A DNA stretch of 64,000 bases from Pirellula staleyi DSM 6068 (GCA_945900945.1 CAMDKL010000003.1:1-64000); one strand, 5' to 3'; counted from the stretch's first letter, positions 53,424 through 63,199 are shown. Numbers and translations are program-made. Notes: a model not told the origin generated them from the letters alone.

Positions 53424-54611
53424 ATGGTAAAGAAGAGTATTTCCGACTTGGAGTGTCAGGGTAAAGTCGTACTCATGCGAGTGGATTTTAATGTTCCGCA
53501 GGACGACTCGGGCGCGATAACGGACGACCGGCGGATTCGCATGGCATTGCCGTCCATCGAGTCTGTAATCAAGCGAGGGGGGAAATTGGTTCTGATGAGC
53601 CACCTAGGTCGGCCGAAGGGTAAAGGGCCGGAGCCAGAGTTTACGCTTCGCCCCACCGCAGTAAGATTGGCGGAACTTTTGGGAATCCCTGTTGCTTTTG
53701 CGTCCGACACGGTGGGAGCTGATGCAGAGTCTAAGATCCAGGCGATTCAAAACGGCGGAGTGCTCGTTTTGGAAAACGTGCGATTCAATCCGGGCGAAAA
53801 AGATGGTGAGCCCGTCTACTCCAGCAAACTGGCAAGCTGGGCCGATATCTACTGTAACGACGCTTTCGGCACCTGCCATCGACTAGAAGCCTCGATGGTC
53901 GCCGTCCCAAGGGCTATGGGAAACAAACCGAAGGTCGTTGGCTTCCTGGTCGCCAAAGAGATCCAGTATCTAAGCGACACGATAGCCAATCCACAACGTC
54001 CTTTTGTAGCGATCCTGGGCGGTGCGAAAGTAAGTGACAAGATCAATGTCATTCAAAATCTTTTAGGAATTTGCGACCAAGTTTTGATCGGTGGCGCAAT
54101 GGCTTATACGTTCTCGCTGGCGCAAGGCGGCGCCATTGGAAAGAGCCTTGTCGAAAAAGAAAAGGTCGAGCTTGCTAAAAAGCTGATTGCGATGGGTGGT
54201 GAGAAGCTAGTATTGCCCGTCGACACACATTGCGGAGACGATTTTAAGGGTAGCTGCAACAAGCAGATCGTTCCTGCCGGAAAGATACCCGAGGGATGGC
54301 AAGGACTGGACATCGGTCCTGAGACATCCAAAAAATTTGCCGCAATTGTCGAAAAGGCTAAGACGATTGTATGGAACGGTCCAATGGGGGTATTTGAGAT
54401 GCCACCATTTGATCGAGGAACCATCGCGGTCGCAGAGGCAATTGCCAAATGCAACGGGATCAGTATTATCGGTGGCGGAGATAGTGCCGCTGCAATCGAA
54501 CAGCTCGGATTCGCTGATTCTGTGACACACGTCAGCACTGGCGGTGGCGCCAGTCTTTCGATGTTAGAAGGGGAAAAATTTGTGGCGGTAGAATTGCTAG
54601 ACAACTGCTAG
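53424..54611 (+). CDS. pgk: phosphoglycerate kinase
   Basis: Pgk transfers phosphate from 1,3-bisphosphoglycerate to ADP in glycolysis and runs in reverse in gluconeogenesis. The 395-residue protein has the full set of motifs: [113 protein letters not shown], and [18 protein letters not shown] followed by [15 protein letters not shown]. It is a single gene in the window, without gap next to it. Its stop shares the sequence CTAG with the stop of the convergent gene downstream. Confidence 0.98.
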
Positions 54612-54913
54612 TTTTTGCTAAAGCCCCTCGGTATATTGGTCTCTCTCGACAAGGGATTTTTGATGTAAAGACGGAAACAGTCTTTGCAAAGATCGAATTG
54701 CTTTCTCTGGTAAACTTCATCGTCGAAGACGGAACTGCACAAGTCATCTGCGGAATCCAACATGTCTTGAATGTCGTCGAGATGGTCTGGATCGTCTACG
54801 AGCTCATGATCGAGCCCGTCCAAGGCAGCTTCAATTTCCACCGTTACGGTGTATCGCAGGTCAGTTGAACCATCGATGTCCCGTTTGCATCTGTCACACG
54901 AATAGTGAATCAC
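54608..54913 (-). CDS. small protein with zinc-ribbon-like Cys pairs
   Basis: The 101-residue protein begins [12 protein letters not shown] and later has [12 protein letters not shown], two CxxC pairs about 60 residues apart that could hold one zinc ion. Between them are beta strands ([14 protein letters not shown]) and a very acidic stretch ([18 protein letters not shown]). Similar short proteins are found in planctomycetes with no assigned role. It overlaps pgk by 4 bp tail to tail. The acidic Cys-rich composition would suit a protein that binds a nucleic-acid enzyme or another protein, but this is speculation. Confidence 0.75.
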
Positions 54914-55183: not shown

Positions 55184-56842
55184 CTATTTTAAAGCTTGTT
55201 TTTCCTGTTCTTCTACCCCTTCTCTCTTTGCACGTTGCTCCTCTAACAATTGTTGTATTTCTACCAATTTGTCGCGGTGCAATTGAGCTTGATCGTTTTG
55301 CGATAGTTCCTCATAGATTGCGATTAACTTTTCTCTGGTTCGAATTCGTTGCGTCGAGGTTTCCAACGCCAACTCGTAGCTCGCTATGGATTCCTCTTTT
55401 CTTTTGAGCGCCGCAAGAATGTCGCCTCGCGAGTCATGAAATTCCGATAACGATGGCGAAATTCCGATCGCGCGGTCAATCAACTTGAGTGACTCATCTA
55501 GTCTTGGCGGTACTACTTTCGTATACAACATTGCGAGATTGTTAAGTGCGATGGTCATTCGGGGCAATTCGGCCAGGATAACTTCATAGTCGTTGATGGC
55601 ACCAGCAACATCTCCTCGCCGAAAAGAGGATTCGGCTAGTAGCAAGCGAGCAACGAACGAAGAGCCTTTTGTGGCTATTTGCACTCGAAGCGCGTTGATG
55701 GTCTCATCGCTTTTCATGATGCCCAATTGCGCCAGGGCGCTCAGATCCCCTTGTATCGCAATGTTGGTAGGATCGAGTGCGACGGCCGCATCCAAAAAGT
55801 CTAAATTAACTTGCACTTCGTTGTTGGACCGGACCCAGCTGGCCTGAAACTTGAGGCGAAAAGCGTCGGACAGCGCACGCGTAAGTTTGAGAGACTGCGG
55901 CACTTGCTTTACGCCCGCTTGAAGGACTTCTAATGCATTGTCAATCCTATTGGTGAGCACATACGCTTGGGCTGCAAGCACCATATTGTCCTCTGCTTTT
56001 TCACCTTTTTTGTCTTTCACTCTTTCGACCAGCAAATCGGCCGTCGCTCTCGCTTGCACTGGTTGCGAATGCTCGGTGTAGACCGCAATGGCAGACAATA
56101 GCAATTTTGGATCAAATTTCGCGGCGCGTTTCAAAAACTCTTGTGCTTCAGCAGTCTTGTTTTCTTGCTGTAGCAATTGAGAGTAAACGAGGAGCAATAC
56201 TGGCGACGTATCCTCGGCGGCGGTCCCTCGCTTCAGATGGTGTTTGAGCGTTTCGAAATCGATTGCTTCCCCTTTTTGACCCCGCTCAATGAGGTCCGCT
56301 GCTAACCAGGCGTGTGCTTTCGGAAATCCACCACGCGGAGTTGGGGCCAAGCTTTCCATGATTTGTCGAGCGATGCCGAGGCTTCCATACCGAGTCATTT
56401 GATCGGCAACATAGAACCTTGCGAATGTGTTGTTTTGATTCAGTTGCAGCACACGTCTAAAAAGCATATCCACAACTTCCGGCAGTCGCTTTAAAGATTG
56501 ATCGGATGCTGCCTGCTCTGCGGATTCAGTATCGGTTCTTTGGGAGGTCGCTAATGCCAATTCCTTACTTGCACGCTGCTCGTACCACATCGTCTTTACA
56601 ATCGGGTCAGACAGCTTACCTAACGCGACTAACGAGCTTAGAGTAACGGCAAGCAAAATAACTGGCAGCAGCGCCGAGATATTTCGCCAATTTCGAGTTC
56701 TACGCCAAAATGCGCATAGATCCAAAAACTCGCCCGCTAAATCTACAGGCGAAATCCAAATCGAATGAAACCAGGTCGACACACGATTGGGTTCATGTGG
56801 GCCATCGTTGAGATCGATTGCGTTCCTTTTCTTAAATAACAC
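55184..56842 (-). CDS. membrane-anchored TPR protein at the end of the exosortase operon
   Basis: This 552-residue protein has one membrane segment near residues 55-75 (ISALLPVILLAVTLSSLVAL) preceded by a basic cytoplasmic head. A long periplasmic part follows with TPR-like repeats: FLKRAAKFDPKLLLSAIAVY, LVLTNRIDNALEVLQAGVKQ approximated by YVLTNRIDNALEVLQAGVKQ, LNNLAMLYTKVVPPRLDESL, and IDRAIGISPSLSEFHDSRGD followed by ILAALKRKEESIASYELALE. It ends in a Glu/Arg-rich coiled coil. It lies 8 bp after the exosortase gene. TPR proteins such as PrsT accompany exosortases in polysaccharide and protein-sorting loci, which supports a joint role. Confidence 0.87.
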   Translation of the reverse strand: MLFKKRNAIDLNDGPHEPNRVSTWFHSIWISPVDLAGEFLDLCAFWRRTRNWRNISALLPVILLAVTLSSLVALGKLSDPIVKTMWYEQRASKELALATSQRTDTESAEQAASDQSLKRLPEVVDMLFRRVLQLNQNNTFARFYVADQMTRYGSLGIARQIMESLAPTPRGGFPKAHAWLAADLIERGQKGEAIDFETLKHHLKRGTAAEDTSPVLLLVYSQLLQQENKTAEAQEFLKRAAKFDPKLLLSAIAVYTEHSQPVQARATADLLVERVKDKKGEKAEDNMVLAAQAYVLTNRIDNALEVLQAGVKQVPQSLKLTRALSDAFRLKFQASWVRSNNEVQVNLDFLDAAVALDPTNIAIQGDLSALAQLGIMKSDETINALRVQIATKGSSFVARLLLAESSFRRGDVAGAINDYEVILAELPRMTIALNNLAMLYTKVVPPRLDESLKLIDRAIGISPSLSEFHDSRGDILAALKRKEESIASYELALETSTQRIRTREKLIAIYEELSQNDQAQLHRDKLVEIQQLLEEQRAKREGVEEQEKQALK

Positions 56843-56850
56843 AGGGTGAC

Positions 56851-58533
56851 CTAATTGACTTTCTTTAGAGCAGTCTCACTCTGCTTTCGTATTCGTTCGA
56901 AGACACCAAAAAAGAACTTTCGATTGCGTTCGATTTCTAGTTCACTCAAATCCCGTCCTGATTCGAAAAATACTTGGACCTGATAACACCGTGAAACTTT
57001 CTCAGTTGGATCGTTCTGCAGTCTTTTAAAGATATTGGATCTACTAGACGACTCCGATGGTGTCGCTCGCAACATGGGAACTCCATTCTCATCGAAAAAA
57101 GCGTACAAAACAAATCCAAATAGACCGTATTGATTCTGCATTTTGAATTCCTCCACCGTCCACGAACCCAATTCGGCAGGTATTTCCACAGGCTTGGTTT
57201 CAATGATTTTCCAGCCAGAAGCCCAGTATCCTTCCCAAAGAGGGCTCCATCCCTGAAACGGAAAATCGAGTCTGGCGAAAACTTGATTTCCTCTGTCATC
57301 GAACTTCCATAAATGCGTATACCTGCCGAGTATGTTAGCTGCAGGCTGCGTTATTGGGCTAAAGCTGATTTTTCGAAGACTACCAAACTGCTCAGGAAAT
57401 GCGTCCTGTGAAGGAAACGCAGCAGCTTGATCTTCACTGATGACCTTCAAAGAAACGTGGTTTCCTTCGAAAATAGAAAATACCAAAAACGCTGAAATCG
57501 AACCAAAAACGACACAACCCAGGCTCGGTAGTCCCAACAAAACAGGAATCGACCTCCAATTGCTTGGCTGGCTATTCATTTCGGCCCACGTTCTATCCAA
57601 CGTCTCTTTCGATTCCGTCGCTTGCGGCCAGGTCGTGGCCCACTGAACCAACTTGATGAGGTTGTTTTGTTCTTCCTGAGCAGTCATTGGATCCAAGATC
57701 GCAACGATAGAAACATGCAATAACAACACGCATGTTAGTGTTATACCAAAGACCAGAATCAAGGTTGTGATATACCCCCAGCCCAGCGATAGATCGAAGC
57801 CAAAATAATCGAATCCAATTGCTATGGCCAATAATCGAATCACGTTACCCAGCACCGAACATAATGGAATTATTGCAAGAGTCGCAAGACTTACTAGCAA
57901 CGAACATCGACGAAAAACAACAATAGAAAATCCAACTGCCATGAGTGCGTAGAAGCTGTCCACGCCATTACAAACGTCCGATACAGCCGTTTTCTTATCC
58001 TGGATTTGCAGAACATTTCCCTCAAGAATATTGGGGACGCCGATTGCATCTAAAATGCCGTTACAAGCCCAGCTGGAAATAGTCTGAAGCCCCGAGGTGA
58101 TTTGCATGTCCAGTCCGCTTGGAAGTGGAACGGCAGCTGCAAACAAGGAGCATATTGCCAAGATGCGAGTCCATTTCGAGCCTCCAAATGCTCCTAAAGA
58201 CCAAGCGAAAGTAACGACTACCGACGCAACTTGAACAACCCATGGTGAAACAATGTAGATGCCTAGGACAGCTAGCCCCATTCCGCCCCATTCCACGAAG
58301 ACAGCAACTCTAGCTCGTAGAAGACTTGCGGGACGATAGTCGCAGGTTCGATAGAGAAGCCAAATTCCTGCGGCGATGGGCAACGGGAAAAAAAGGGAAC
58401 GCGGCTGATCGATTAGCCGCCGAGCTTGCAAATACAGAAACGGAACCATACTCAGGAGCGGTAGAACTAGCCCGAGCAATAACCAAGTTTGAAGAATTTT
58501 TTTTTCGGCTCGATCCAGCATGTCGCGATTCAT
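56851..58533 (-). CDS. exosortase-family membrane protein with fused EpsI-like domain
   Basis: The start at ATG 58533 overlaps the stop of the preceding gene as ATGA; an ATG eight codons earlier is less likely. The 560-residue protein has about eight membrane helices carrying the exosortase core: SDVCNGVDSFYALMAVGF (nucleophile Cys 188) and LGNVIRLLAIAIG (Arg 233). The third catalytic position, usually His in an H-[DE]-x2-G context, aligns with Tyr 254 in LGWGYITTL. From residue 330 a periplasmic domain resembles EpsI (DUF3485), ending with SRCYQVQVFFESGRDLSELE. Exosortases cleave and re-anchor C-terminal sorting signals, and relatives take part in exopolysaccharide export. Missing His makes its activity uncertain. 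Confidence 0.85.
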   Translation of the reverse strand: MNRDMLDRAEKKILQTWLLLGLVLPLLSMVPFLYLQARRLIDQPRSLFFPLPIAAGIWLLYRTCDYRPASLLRARVAVFVEWGGMGLAVLGIYIVSPWVVQVASVVVTFAWSLGAFGGSKWTRILAICSLFAAAVPLPSGLDMQITSGLQTISSWACNGILDAIGVPNILEGNVLQIQDKKTAVSDVCNGVDSFYALMAVGFSIVVFRRCSLLVSLATLAIIPLCSVLGNVIRLLAIAIGFDYFGFDLSLGWGYITTLILVFGITLTCVLLLHVSIVAILDPMTAQEEQNNLIKLVQWATTWPQATESKETLDRTWAEMNSQPSNWRSIPVLLGLPSLGCVVFGSISAFLVFSIFEGNHVSLKVISEDQAAAFPSQDAFPEQFGSLRKISFSPITQPAANILGRYTHLWKFDDRGNQVFARLDFPFQGWSPLWEGYWASGWKIIETKPVEIPAELGSWTVEEFKMQNQYGLFGFVLYAFFDENGVPMLRATPSESSSRSNIFKRLQNDPTEKVSRCYQVQVFFESGRDLSELEIERNRKFFFGVFERIRKQSETALKKVN

Positions 58534-60998
58534 CGTTTCGCTCTCGAAGTTGCCCATTTGGAAATGTCGGATTCTAACAAATGGAGAGCGGAATCCACCA
58601 ACGCTTGATCTGAGGCACTCAATTCGATTAAACCTCCAAATCGACGCTCGTAGAACAATCGCGACAGCAACTCGGCGTCCAAGGCGACAGACCGCTCGCT
58701 GAGCTTCATCGAGGCAACTTGAAAGAACTCTCGTTGCGTTTGAGAGCTACCGCGTTTAAATCCGATTCGATTCAATAGTCGGACGGCCCGATTGTAGAAG
58801 TCAACACTTGATTCCTGCGACTTGGTAAATGCAGATCGCAACCGAATCCCTGGTATCCAATTTGGAAAGCGATGTAACAACAACCGATACAATAATACGG
58901 CAAAAATCCCAGCTGCCGTCACGCCCAAAGCGACCTGCCAAGAGAACCAACGAGCGGGCGACAAAAAGAATCCGACAAGCTGCGTGTTTTGGATTCGATC
59001 TACTGCGCTTTTCAGATTGAGCCACGCTTCGGTATAATTGCCATCTGAACTCTCGCCGAGGACCGAAAAAATGGTGCTCTGTTTGGATTTGTCCATATTG
59101 AGAATCATCTCGGACCAAAATTCCTGCATCATTCCTATCGTCTGCCCATCTGTCTTTCGAAAAGCCCCGCCTGCATTCGAATTATCTCCCGGTGGTGTAC
59201 CATCCAATCTCATCCATGCGCCCCGTTTTATGTAGCTTGGCACGGGGATCGAATGGGCAGCCAGTTCCTCGACCGTAAAGTATGCCTCGACCCAAACATG
59301 TGCATGGCTCTGCTGAACCAAAAAATACTCTCCCAAGTCGTTGTACTCACTGGGACGGAAACCAACCACAAGTCGCGTTGGAATGTCTAATGATCTCAAA
59401 AGCATCGCAAGTGCTGACGCAAAATACTGGCAATGGCCCTTTCGCTTGTTCAACAAAAAATCGACAATCGGATCGACGTTTCGATCGAGGGGAGCTGTTA
59501 ACAAAAGCGTGTACCTGAAGTCGGGTCCGTTCGCCAAATATTCTTCGAGAAATATCGCCTTTGCAAATCTATCACCCTCCTTAAAAGTACTCTGAGCAAG
59601 TATTTTGTCGCGGAACGGGATGATCGGTCGAAGAGAATCGGGGAATTCAAGCAACTCCTCTTTTTGGTATATGCCAAATCGTGAACGCATGGTTGATCCG
59701 TTCTCTTCATCGTCGCGCAAACAGTCCCTCAGATCCGGCAGTAACGGACTTTGAATGCCGTCTTTAAAGGCATACGTAAAATACGAATAGCGACGCTTCT
59801 GATTATTGTTCAACTGAACTGACTCACGTGTATCGACCATGCGCCAATCTCGTCGGATTAAACTGAATCCGTCCGTGCCCAGGCTTTGAGCAAATGGAGC
59901 AATCGTCGGAACCACTTCCCCCAAATTCCCCTTCTCAATAATGCTCACAATTACCGAATCGGTTTCATTAGCCAGTGATTGGTTTATCTGTGCGGGCAAC
60001 GGGGGGACTCGCATAATACTCTGGCTAAGCAGTAACCCTGGCTGGTCCGGTTGCCATTCCCCCATTCGCGGGCCATCAATATATTGGTGCGAGACCGAGG
60101 CACGAATGTACGGCGGCAACTCAGGTCGATAGTTCGTTTTCTTGCGAGCATCTCGCATACTCATACGAAAAAGTGGGGCTTCGTTCCTTAGCAATTTGCC
60201 AACAGAACGCAGCGAAATTTGCTCGCTAAATCCAACTCTGGTTGCTTCAAAACCACTTCCTTGGTAGGAGTTCATGCCAAGACGTGGAAGAGAATAAAAG
60301 TAGGCGATCGAAAAAACTAGAACAGAGCATGCCAACGGTATAATACCTCTGCCCCATCGCGACGGTGCAAAGAATTGCGATTTCCTGATTCCACTAAGCT
60401 CGGGGGATTCGATAGCCGTCAACCTTACCCCCGAGTTCAGATTGGTAACCAATTGTTCCTTTCCTAACCAATGCAACAGCCTCGCCCAAAGAGTCGTCGA
60501 TTCCGAAATGGATTCACTATGTCGGAGGTGCGAGGCAAGCTGCGCAAGCGCCATCATGGCAGCGCATCCAATCGCAAGAACAGGAAGCATCAATAGGCCA
60601 TAAAGTACATTGTTGTTTACCAACGCTCCGACGACCATCTCCAGCAGTAGGAAGACTCCCCATTGTTCGAAAACACGCTTCGATTTCTTTTGAAACATAA
60701 GCGGCAATTGGACGTAAACCAGAAGATTGCCGACCTCCATGATTTGATTCTTGGTCGCATCGCCAAAAAAATCGATGATCGCGATCCCGGCCCCTGCCAT
60801 CATGGCCAAATAGACTACCCACCGATTCAATGAGAACCAACCTAGAATGTCGGTGTAAAAAATCGACAGAATCGCACAAAAGCCGACCAGCAATGGCAAG
60901 TTCCATGATTGTTTGCCAAGGCCAATCAAGCCCGCTGCAAAAGTGGCAAACAAGCCAAAGTAAATCGCCACTCGAATAAAACTAGGCTGTTGATTCAT
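58530..60998 (-). CDS. membrane transglutaminase (TgpA/DUF3488-like)
   Basis: The 822-residue protein has six N-terminal membrane segments (IYFGLFATFAAGLIGLGK, LNRWVVYLAMMAGAGIAII and VLYGLLMLPVLAIGCAAMM among them), a large periplasmic part and a C-terminal helix. The transglutaminase core contains KGHCQYFASALAMLLRS with Cys 523, SHAHVWVEAYF with His 567 and MRLDGTPPGD with Asp 599, an intact catalytic triad. Family relatives such as TgpA are essential or envelope-linked in other bacteria, and the core fold also occurs in proteases. Its gene starts 18 bp behind the prepilin peptidase gene and overlaps the exosortase gene. Crosslinking or cleavage of an envelope protein is a plausible role. 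Confidence 0.9.
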   Translation of the reverse strand: MNQQPSFIRVAIYFGLFATFAAGLIGLGKQSWNLPLLVGFCAILSIFYTDILGWFSLNRWVVYLAMMAGAGIAIIDFFGDATKNQIMEVGNLLVYVQLPLMFQKKSKRVFEQWGVFLLLEMVVGALVNNNVLYGLLMLPVLAIGCAAMMALAQLASHLRHSESISESTTLWARLLHWLGKEQLVTNLNSGVRLTAIESPELSGIRKSQFFAPSRWGRGIIPLACSVLVFSIAYFYSLPRLGMNSYQGSGFEATRVGFSEQISLRSVGKLLRNEAPLFRMSMRDARKKTNYRPELPPYIRASVSHQYIDGPRMGEWQPDQPGLLLSQSIMRVPPLPAQINQSLANETDSVIVSIIEKGNLGEVVPTIAPFAQSLGTDGFSLIRRDWRMVDTRESVQLNNNQKRRYSYFTYAFKDGIQSPLLPDLRDCLRDDEENGSTMRSRFGIYQKEELLEFPDSLRPIIPFRDKILAQSTFKEGDRFAKAIFLEEYLANGPDFRYTLLLTAPLDRNVDPIVDFLLNKRKGHCQYFASALAMLLRSLDIPTRLVVGFRPSEYNDLGEYFLVQQSHAHVWVEAYFTVEELAAHSIPVPSYIKRGAWMRLDGTPPGDNSNAGGAFRKTDGQTIGMMQEFWSEMILNMDKSKQSTIFSVLGESSDGNYTEAWLNLKSAVDRIQNTQLVGFFLSPARWFSWQVALGVTAAGIFAVLLYRLLLHRFPNWIPGIRLRSAFTKSQESSVDFYNRAVRLLNRIGFKRGSSQTQREFFQVASMKLSERSVALDAELLSRLFYERRFGGLIELSASDQALVDSALHLLESDISKWATSRAKR

Positions 60999-61016
60999 GG
61001 CTCTAACCCTACCCCG

Positions 61017-62249
61017 TTAGTGTCTACGCGGTCCCAACAACAGAAATTTTATTGTTTGAATCAGCCAGAGCATCACTCCAAGTGCAATCAGTAGTCCCAA
61101 AAAGATGGGGAACAGCAAATGGGGCGGCAAAAACCAAACGGAACACGTGCCCCACAAATTAACCCAGTCGAGCATGCAGTACAGAGTTGCTGCGCACAAG
61201 TAGGGACCAAATGGCGTTGCATTGTCACGCGTAATGACCCACACCATAACAACAAAGACAAGGCCAAAAAAAGGCGCTAGAAAAAATGCGATCCAAACGA
61301 TTTGCCAACCAAAAAAAGAACCTATCATCGCCATGAGAGTAACGTCACCAAAACCAAGTGCCTCCTGCCCCATCGCCCAATGCGCCACAATACGAAACCC
61401 CCAAACCAACATCCCACCCAACCCAATTCCAAAGAGAGACGAAAGCAATGCTTCCCATCGCATTGGGGCAACCGCCATGTAAGCAACAATCAAACAAACC
61501 ACGCCGACAAGCCACAGCCCAAACAGCATCCTGGTACTTGGACTCCTCCTCAATCCTTCGAAAAAATAATCAACCGCCTTTTTCAAGCCTCGACGGTTGA
61601 TCCATCTTCGGTCCGCCATTCCAAAGCACCACAAGCTCCAAAATAGAAGCCCAAGAAAAAGCCCAGAACTACCGTTCCAAATTGCACTCCACCGATCCGG
61701 CGAATTGGCTTGTAACGGAACGGGATCTCCTACCAAAACCGGGAAAGCAGGAAAAGCCAATTCCTGCATTCGCCAGTCGGGTAGAAATACGGCTCCTAGA
61801 AGACCAAGAATCGTTCCCGGAATCGTGATCAAATCCGGAATCGTCCGCTCGTCAAAGTCAATGAACGACGCAACGGTCATGAGCGTGATTAGCAACGTAA
61901 ACGCGACAAACTGTTGCCCAAGCGTACCTACGCCAACAACCGACCCGCCCGGCGTAAATGCGCCAGCCATGCAATTGCGATACAGAAACACAATCGCCAT
62001 CGGTGTCGCTAACTCGATCAAAAAAGGCCTAAGCCAAAATAATCGACCCAAGTGAACGCTCTCTTCTCGTCGGAAAAGCCATCCAACAATTGGAAGCTTG
62101 GCACTCCATTTCCTTTTGTAAATTTCTGCCGGCTGCGACTGCCACGGACTAATAACGCGAGGAAAGTAAGCAAAGGAATAGATCGCGAAGTTAATGAAAG
62201 GACCAAGCATTAACCCGAATAGTAACAGTCCAATCTCAAAAAGGCCCAT
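61017..62249 (-). CDS. atypical A24-family prepilin peptidase
   Basis: The 410-residue polytopic protein carries both aspartates of the type IV prepilin peptidase family: FIDFDERTIPDLITIPG (Asp 131, with the conserved PD) and EALGFGDVTLMAMIG (Asp 303 of GFGD). The usual N-terminal zinc Cys motifs (two CxxC) are absent, in the region KLPIVGWLFRREESVHLGRL. Between the two aspartates lie about 170 residues, roughly twice the normal distance, with extra membrane and soluble segments. Members cut and methylate pilin leaders; without cysteines the methylase function may be lost. DUF1559-type pseudopilins, one of which is at 140-988, would be candidate substrates. Confidence 0.88.
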   Translation of the reverse strand: MGLFEIGLLLFGLMLGPFINFAIYSFAYFPRVISPWQSQPAEIYKRKWSAKLPIVGWLFRREESVHLGRLFWLRPFLIELATPMAIVFLYRNCMAGAFTPGGSVVGVGTLGQQFVAFTLLITLMTVASFIDFDERTIPDLITIPGTILGLLGAVFLPDWRMQELAFPAFPVLVGDPVPLQANSPDRWSAIWNGSSGLFLGLLFWSLWCFGMADRRWINRRGLKKAVDYFFEGLRRSPSTRMLFGLWLVGVVCLIVAYMAVAPMRWEALLSSLFGIGLGGMLVWGFRIVAHWAMGQEALGFGDVTLMAMIGSFFGWQIVWIAFFLAPFFGLVFVVMVWVITRDNATPFGPYLCAATLYCMLDWVNLWGTCSVWFLPPHLLFPIFLGLLIALGVMLWLIQTIKFLLLGPRRH

Positions 62250-62267
62250 GCAATTTTCCGGTGAAGT

Positions 62268-62801
62268 TTAAGTGATACGGTGAAACCAATCCGCAATTGT
62301 CTCTGCGACGGATTCCATCGATTGATCGTCAGTGGAAACTGCAAGATCAGCAACCTCGTTATACCATGGGATTCGCATCTTTAGGATGGATCGAATTTCC
62401 TCCATATCTCCAAGCTTACTTAGTTTGGGACGACGCGTTTGAGTTGTCTTGTCCTTCGAGATTCGCTCCTCGATAGTCTCAGGCGTAGCTTGCAACCAAA
62501 CCGTTTTCCCCAGGTTGCGAATGCACTTCCGATTTTCAGGACGCAATATAGCTCCACCTCCGAGTGAGATGATGGCTGATTCCTTTAACGCAGCCAAGTG
62601 AGAGATTTGGGCGGACTCCAGATCGCGAAAGCCTTCTTGACCTACTTCGGAAAAAAGTTCCGCGATGGACTTGCCAGCACTGGACTCAATTGCCGCGTCA
62701 ATGTCGATAAGTTTGCGAGACAACGCCACCGACAGAAGCTGTCCGACAGCCGATTTGCCGCACCCACGATAACCGGTAAGAAGTAGGTGCGTTATGGCCA
62801 T
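62268..62801 (-). CDS. aroK: shikimate kinase
   Basis: The enzyme phosphorylates shikimate at O3, one step before EPSP synthase. The 177 residues from ATG 62801 have Walker A LLLTGYRGCGKSAVGQLLS, the shikimate-binding IDIDAAIESSAGKSIAELF followed by REGFRDLES-like GQEGFRDLES, SLGGGAILRPENRKCI and WLQATPETIEERI, then TRRPKLSKL of the lid. An ATG twelve codons upstream (62837) adds a leader without homology. It lies 83 bp behind rplU and 18 bp before the prepilin peptidase gene, so it is probably co-expressed with both. The shikimate step has no evident link to the envelope genes. Confidence 0.92.
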   Translation of the reverse strand: MAITHLLLTGYRGCGKSAVGQLLSVALSRKLIDIDAAIESSAGKSIAELFSEVGQEGFRDLESAQISHLAALKESAIISLGGGAILRPENRKCIRNLGKTVWLQATPETIEERISKDKTTQTRRPKLSKLGDMEEIRSILKMRIPWYNEVADLAVSTDDQSMESVAETIADWFHRIT

Positions 62802-62884
62802 GATACACCAACCACATCGCTGGCCTATCGTCTGCAATCAAAAAACGCAGCCGACCATTCGATGCTCCTAAACAATAATCGCCG

Positions 62885-63199
62885 TTAGCTGTTTATCGAC
62901 TCAATTTTAATACGGGTGTACTTTTGGCGGTGGCCAGTTCGTACTTCGTAATTCTTACGGCGGCGAAACTTTTGGATGTAAATCTTTTCGCCTTGCTCCA
63001 AACCAACTACCGACGCACTGACTTTGGCACCCGCAAGGGTCGGCTGCCCCAGTTTGAGGCCAGTCTCACCGCCAATTGCGAGCACGCGATCAAAATCGAC
63101 TTTGTCGCCAGTTACAGCGGTATCTCGGTAGTCAATATCGAGCAATTGCCCTTCTTGAACTTTGAATTGACGACCACCGTCACAAATAATCGCGTACAT
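62885..63199 (-). CDS. rplU: 50S ribosomal protein L21
   Basis: The 104-residue protein MYAIICDGGRQFKVQEGQLL is L21; IDYRDTAVTGDKVDFDRVLA, LKLGQPTLAGAKVSASVVG and the basic C-terminal KIYIQKFRRRKNYEVRTGHR segment complete the fold that binds 23S rRNA. An ATG nine codons earlier is in frame but outside the family. In most bacteria rpmA (L27) follows directly; here aroK does, and no L27 gene is in the window. It is the first gene of the leftward aroK-peptidase-transglutaminase-exosortase-TPR group. Confidence 0.97.
   Translation of the reverse strand: MYAIICDGGRQFKVQEGQLLDIDYRDTAVTGDKVDFDRVLAIGGETGLKLGQPTLAGAKVSASVVGLEQGEKIYIQKFRRRKNYEVRTGHRQKYTRIKIESINS

Follow-up and report, generated by a model that had tools for sequence, protein, structure and literature searches.

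The locus analysed here raises the question of why genes for an A24 prepilin peptidase, a transglutaminase, an exosortase homologue and a TPR protein should stand in a row behind rplU and aroK. The original prediction, made for the window (the whole stretch of 64,000 nucleotides of Pirellula DNA that was analysed), explained the arrangement by an active envelope-maturation line, in which the A24 peptidase trims the N-termini, the transglutaminase modifies the side chains and the exosortase trims the C-termini of shared surface proteins. We compared the unit with its counterparts in the genus and the family, and arrived at a different, more tentative explanation.

The six-gene unit in the genus Pirellula

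The six leftward genes (rplU, aroK, A24, transglutaminase, exosortase, TPR; all on the minus strand, Table 1) were confirmed, as were the gaps of 83, 18 and 18 bp, the 4-bp ATGA overlap and the 8-bp gap that had been described for them, and all six family names were upheld by Pfam/NCBIfam domain matches. In the transglutaminase the TgpA_N and core domains score over their cut-offs, DUF4129 reaches 24.6 bits vs. a cut-off of 24.8. The conserved block is bordered by rplU upstream, which keeps this position in most members of the genus, and by the TPR gene downstream. An open reading frame of 101 residues with CxxC pairs lies between pgk and the TPR gene (window 54608-54913, minus strand) and has no Pfam/NCBIfam match. 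Judged from the sequence, the six genes probably form one transcription unit; promoter-like matches were fewer than in shuffled sequence and terminator-like matches as many as in the shuffles, so neither count is informative. The single genes are not new, since NCBIfam already has a family under the name exosortase U.

Table 1. Features of the six-gene unit (window coordinates) and of the second exosortase-like/TPR pair (coordinates within the named locus)
Feature	Position	Strand	Basis
rplU, 50S ribosomal protein L21, first gene of the unit	62885..63199	-	PF00829, TIGR00061 over cut-off
aroK, shikimate kinase, ATG start at 62801	62268..62801	-	PF01202 142.7 bits
A24 prepilin peptidase	61017..62249	-	PF01478 + PF06750 (A24 + A24_N domains)
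A24 catalytic motif SFIDFD, Asp131	61857-61859	-	
A24 catalytic motif GFGD, Asp302	61344-61346	-	
TgpA-like transglutaminase	58530..60998	-	Transglut_core, TgpA_N, DUF4129
Transglutaminase catalytic Cys523	59430-59432	-	
Transglutaminase catalytic His567	59298-59300	-	
Transglutaminase catalytic Asp599	59202-59204	-	
Exosortase U homologue, eroded active site	56851..58533	-	PF09721 66.7 bits (cut-off 25.7), NF033780 87.3 bits (cut-off 40)
Exosortase Cys188, kept	57970-57972	-	
Exosortase Arg233, kept	57835-57837	-	
Exosortase Tyr254 (codon TAT) in place of the catalytic His	57772..57774	-	Alignment
Exosortase U C-terminal periplasmic domain, residues 366-551	56881..57438	-	NF033780; predicted DcrB/Mog1/PsbP/Eag-like fold
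TPR protein, one N-terminal membrane helix, GTG start, last gene of the unit	55184..56842	-	TPR models
Second pair in the window's own genome (G000:C1)	L132 7974-9047 and 6305-7984		
Second exosortase-like/TPR locus	L242 5106-7787		
Second exosortase-like/TPR locus	L245 5312-7996		

The arrangement, whole or in most part, recurs in seven further genomes of the Pirellula genus, three times intact, three times interrupted only by contig ends and once split by rearrangement, which rules out an order unique to one strain. The sample comprised 27 genomes of the genus, nearly all genomes used were metagenome assemblies, and the unit occurs in eight only. All six genes are contiguous in the window, G320, G311 and G319; in G318 and G317 the order agrees as far as the contigs extend, and in G306 the unit is spread over two contigs, both of which end inside the transglutaminase gene. 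G312 is the rearranged genome: its transglutaminase-exosortase-TPR block is intact and lies away from rplU-aroK-A24. Since the gene order recurs in these relatives, and is kept between lineages whose exosortases are only 28-51% identical, it exceeds what would be expected by chance. The multi-gene unit that had been proposed is real, and it is conserved across one subclade.

Adjacency of the A24 and transglutaminase genes extends to 22 of the 27 genomes (the exceptions are G312 and G309, and three genomes were undecidable owing to contig ends or missing matches). The transglutaminase gene is followed by the exosortase and TPR genes in eight genomes, the window's included; in the rest of the genus A24 and transglutaminase genes occur with neither as a neighbour. 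Where exosortase U homologues were found elsewhere in the genus, they sit away from the transglutaminase, and their neighbours, where read, are often glycosyltransferases, hexapeptide transferases or a Wzz-like ATPase.

The modules outside the genus

Outside the genus the components of the unit go separate ways. In 49 of 56 transglutaminase loci a DUF58 gene lies within two genes of the transglutaminase, in 36 also with MoxR; an adjacent A24 gene was found in none of the 56, nor was an exosortase gene in stretches of up to 10 kb on each side. The Pirellula protein resembles TgpA of Pseudomonas aeruginosa in having TgpA_N, a transglutaminase core with Cys, His and Asp kept, and a C-terminal DUF4129-like part, but its gene stands behind a prepilin peptidase gene, and the MoxR-DUF58 type cluster was not found around it in the window or in the genus. 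The A24 peptidase, usually in one copy, was matched in 97 of 100 family genomes and is therefore not dedicated to the unit; in some other genera its gene adjoins aroK, but neither rplU nor the transglutaminase gene is next to them. A related genus, g214, has the A24, transglutaminase, exosortase and TPR genes all on different contigs, and in seven genomes (G297, G305, G307, G315, G309 and both g214 genomes) the TPR orthologue has no adjacent exosortase. Independent occurrence of the four envelope genes, which had been named as evidence against the maturation line, was thus found in part, in the rest of the genus and outside it.

As the modules are independent elsewhere, a maturation line is no fitting account of the family as a whole. 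The gene order in the eight genomes and the intact active sites of the A24 peptidase and the transglutaminase are in its favour, but this independence, the near-universal A24 peptidase and the eroded active site of the exosortase (see below) speak against it. The original prediction also envisaged substrates carrying both a type III signal and a C-terminal sorting tag: none of ten PEP-CTERM proteins was tagged in this double manner, the leaders being judged by eye. We regard the three-enzyme line as very improbable, the least likely of the readings considered. About ten PEP-CTERM proteins (G000:C36, C269, C188, C8, C84, C221, C203, C5, C266 and C18; L249-L258) are present in the window's genome along with three other exosortases; the canonical ones at C18 and C56 are presumably the enzymes that process them. 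None of the operon's own six proteins ends in a tag, helix and basic tail.

The novelty claimed for the unit was borne out in so far as the pairing of an exosortase with a transglutaminase is absent from the literature found. This literature, of partial coverage, held nothing that links an exosortase with a transglutaminase or with a pseudoenzyme, nothing on DUF3485, and no description of a conserved but catalytically eroded exosortase that has a TPR partner and is linked to TgpA.

Active-site residues of the exosortase homologues

In EpsH, Haft and colleagues described six residues as invariant, in the motifs CxG, NxxR and HxxxG (PMC1569441), and in the archaeosortase ArtA Cys173, Arg214 and Arg253 were shown by mutation to be required (PMC9263693). 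The exosortase of the window passes the exosortase profile and retains C188NG and N230VIR, and where HxxxG is expected it has Y254ITTL. This segment aligns gap-free to orthologues that keep the His, which rules out misalignment as the source of the missing residue. Four of the six EpsH residues are present in the window protein, five in G320 and in G311, two each in G318, G319 and G306, one in G317 and none in G312; a paralogue in the window's own genome has all six. Cys, Arg and His are complete in only two of the eight operon copies (G320, G311); in the full census of exosortase U-like proteins, which includes a few duplicates, 45 of 62 entries have all three. The Cys is absent from the G317 and G312 proteins and the Arg from that of G312, and the position of the catalytic His is occupied by Tyr, Ala or Pro depending on the lineage, with no constant substitute. 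In the same genomes the aspartates and motifs of the A24 peptidase are unchanged across the clade, and the Cys, His and Asp of the transglutaminase are invariant in 18 sequences of the genus. The operon exosortases form one clade (support 95/90), thus their erosion most likely occurred in place and stepwise.

Decay is not confined to the operon clade: G220, for instance, has a decayed exosortase next to a TPR gene. The intact exosortase U paralogue, G000:C311 (L007), lies on a 3-kb contig, and other genomes of the family (L103, L125, L144, L145) have two close exosortase U-like genes, one of which is often decayed at the catalytic site.

The pattern of residues makes it fairly probable that the operon exosortase has lost sortase chemistry. 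Some catalytic activity may remain, because the window protein keeps Cys188 and Arg233 and the G320 and G311 proteins keep all three residues. It is conceivable that the protein is still an enzyme which works on its own substrates with Cys and Arg and without the His: both residues are retained in six of the eight copies, and in ArtA the residues needed are a Cys and two Arg, with no His among them (PMC9263693). The varied occupants of the third position and the losses in G317 and G312 do not fit such altered chemistry, and we consider it rather improbable.

The consequences reach beyond this operon. A match to the exosortase profile is enough for a protein to be annotated as a sorting enzyme, and matches over the curated cut-offs, including those that carry the name exosortase U, comprise proteins that have lost catalytic residues, hence automatic annotation and the pairing of substrates by co-occurrence can mislead in Planctomycetota. 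The window homologue is itself an example. It has the membrane domain and the fused C-terminal domain of exosortase U (NF033780; PF09721, EpsH family), both over curated cut-offs, and the association with a TPR gene that is frequent in the family, but it lacks the catalytic His (relatives lack also the Cys and the Arg), and it is encoded behind a transglutaminase gene and not in a glycan cluster. Glycan (EPS) genes, which are found around intact exosortase relatives, are missing from the unit.

A possible role for the exosortase-TPR pair

All eight operon exosortase copies are open reading frames, and dN/dS is 0.30-0.41 in close pairs, values by which the gene is under purifying selection. A simple pseudogene is not favoured by these data. 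The dN/dS values are about two to four times those of the neighbouring transglutaminase and A24 genes, which is also compatible with slow decay. The pair may have landed behind a well-expressed operon and, with an intact paralogue covering the old role, the exosortase gene may be eroding without having acquired a new function. The stepwise loss of residues and the intact G000:C311 gene agree with such passive decay, but eight of eight copies remain open over deep divergence, dN/dS is well under 1, the C-terminal domain stays over cut-off, and the pair has remained behind the transglutaminase even in the rearranged G312. On balance we think that passive decay is unlikely, though less so than altered chemistry.

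The C-terminal domain is well kept: the NF033780 scores are 64-107 bits across the operon copies scanned, all over cut-off, whereas the Pfam exosortase score falls to 32 bits in G312. Modelled alone, the domain gave a confident structure (pLDDT 85.7). Its best rows in the VIA structure comparison were SciW, Mog1, PsbP, DcrB and EagT6, which look like one superfamily, with Z 8.3-9.0 (the usual background is 7-8) and rmsd 2.7-3.6 over 104-144 residues; Foldseek returned no match for it at E <= 0.001. The domain is thus likely, from a modest match, to have a DcrB/Mog1/PsbP/Eag-like fold. SciW and EagT6 are Eag chaperones, and their solved structures include a bound transmembrane or N-terminal part of an effector. 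For the exosortase no solved relative was found by sequence in the PDB, and structure comparison of its membrane domain gave no convincing fold match.

The TPR gene adjoins the exosortase gene in eight of eight genomes, and exosortase U-TPR pairs were found across the family. Like PrsT, the TPR lipoprotein of XrtA/PEP-CTERM systems (TIGR02917), the TPR protein is encoded with an exosortase, but it scores 53.3 bits against this model, below the curated cut-off of 312.2, and the sequence read has a predicted membrane helix as its anchor, whereas PrsT is a lipoprotein. Pirellula genomes contain a second TPR homologue, preceded by a short exosortase-like membrane protein. The latter has no convincing Pfam match, but when an alignment of such proteins was compared with that of exosortase U, the two matched along the full length of the sortase domain (98% probability, E 1.7e-13); the catalytic His is missing from the short protein, and often the Cys as well. 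In G311 and G312 the two members of this second pair form a single fused protein of about 893 residues, and the fusion suggests that exosortase-fold proteins and TPR proteins of this kind touch each other.

We propose, at somewhat less than even odds, that the operon exosortase-TPR pair is a largely non-catalytic membrane scaffold attached to the TgpA transglutaminase, the scaffold role being the weak part of the proposal. Three modules, each of which occurs independently elsewhere, would have come together in the unit: the gene of a housekeeping prepilin peptidase with aroK, that of a TgpA transglutaminase, which in Pirellula stands outside its usual MoxR-DUF58 cluster, and an exosortase U-TPR pair that in one subclade came to lie behind the transglutaminase. 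In this subclade the exosortase has been shedding the residues for cleaving and transferring C-terminal sorting tags, while retaining its membrane domain, C-terminal domain and reading frame. The exosortase, through its exosortase-fold membrane domain and its periplasmic DcrB/Eag-like domain, could hold an exported polypeptide that is tethered to the membrane; the TPR protein, itself membrane-anchored, would bind next to it, and the two proteins together would position clients for the intact transglutaminase or regulate it. Inactive rhomboids (iRhoms), in which a membrane protease fold was kept after catalytic loss and is used for client binding, offer an analogy for the mode of action only, their fold and lineage being unrelated to those of exosortases.

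This proposal agrees with the loss of residues from the exosortase next to unchanged A24 and transglutaminase sites, with the open and constrained reading frames, with the constant TPR adjacency and the fusion of the homologous short decayed pair, and with the likeness of the C-terminal fold to Eag chaperones, which hold transmembrane helices. The catalytic residues kept in the window, G320 and G311, the raised dN/dS, the seven genomes in which the TPR orthologue stands alone and the modest fold match weigh against it, and the tie between exosortase and transglutaminase consists in gene order alone. Should the scaffold proposal hold, an exosortase has become a partner without enzymatic function, and study of the operon could help to find out what TgpA acts on. 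The natural substrate of TgpA was left open in a study of 2012 (PMC3507681).

A broader version of the scaffold proposal, which we put forward with more reserve, is that a non-catalytic exosortase with a membrane-anchored TPR protein constitutes a recurrent, undescribed envelope scaffold of Pirellulaceae. It may have arisen more than once and be encoded either by two genes or by one fused gene, and one branch of Pirellula would have recruited it into the transglutaminase operon, where it would present clients to TgpA or regulate it.

The second exosortase-like/TPR pair is divergent from a gene that, judged by eye, resembles a KDO transferase (waaA). In one locus of G220 (L136, G220:C2:741000-760900) seven TPR homologues of 628-722 residues each stand in tandem.
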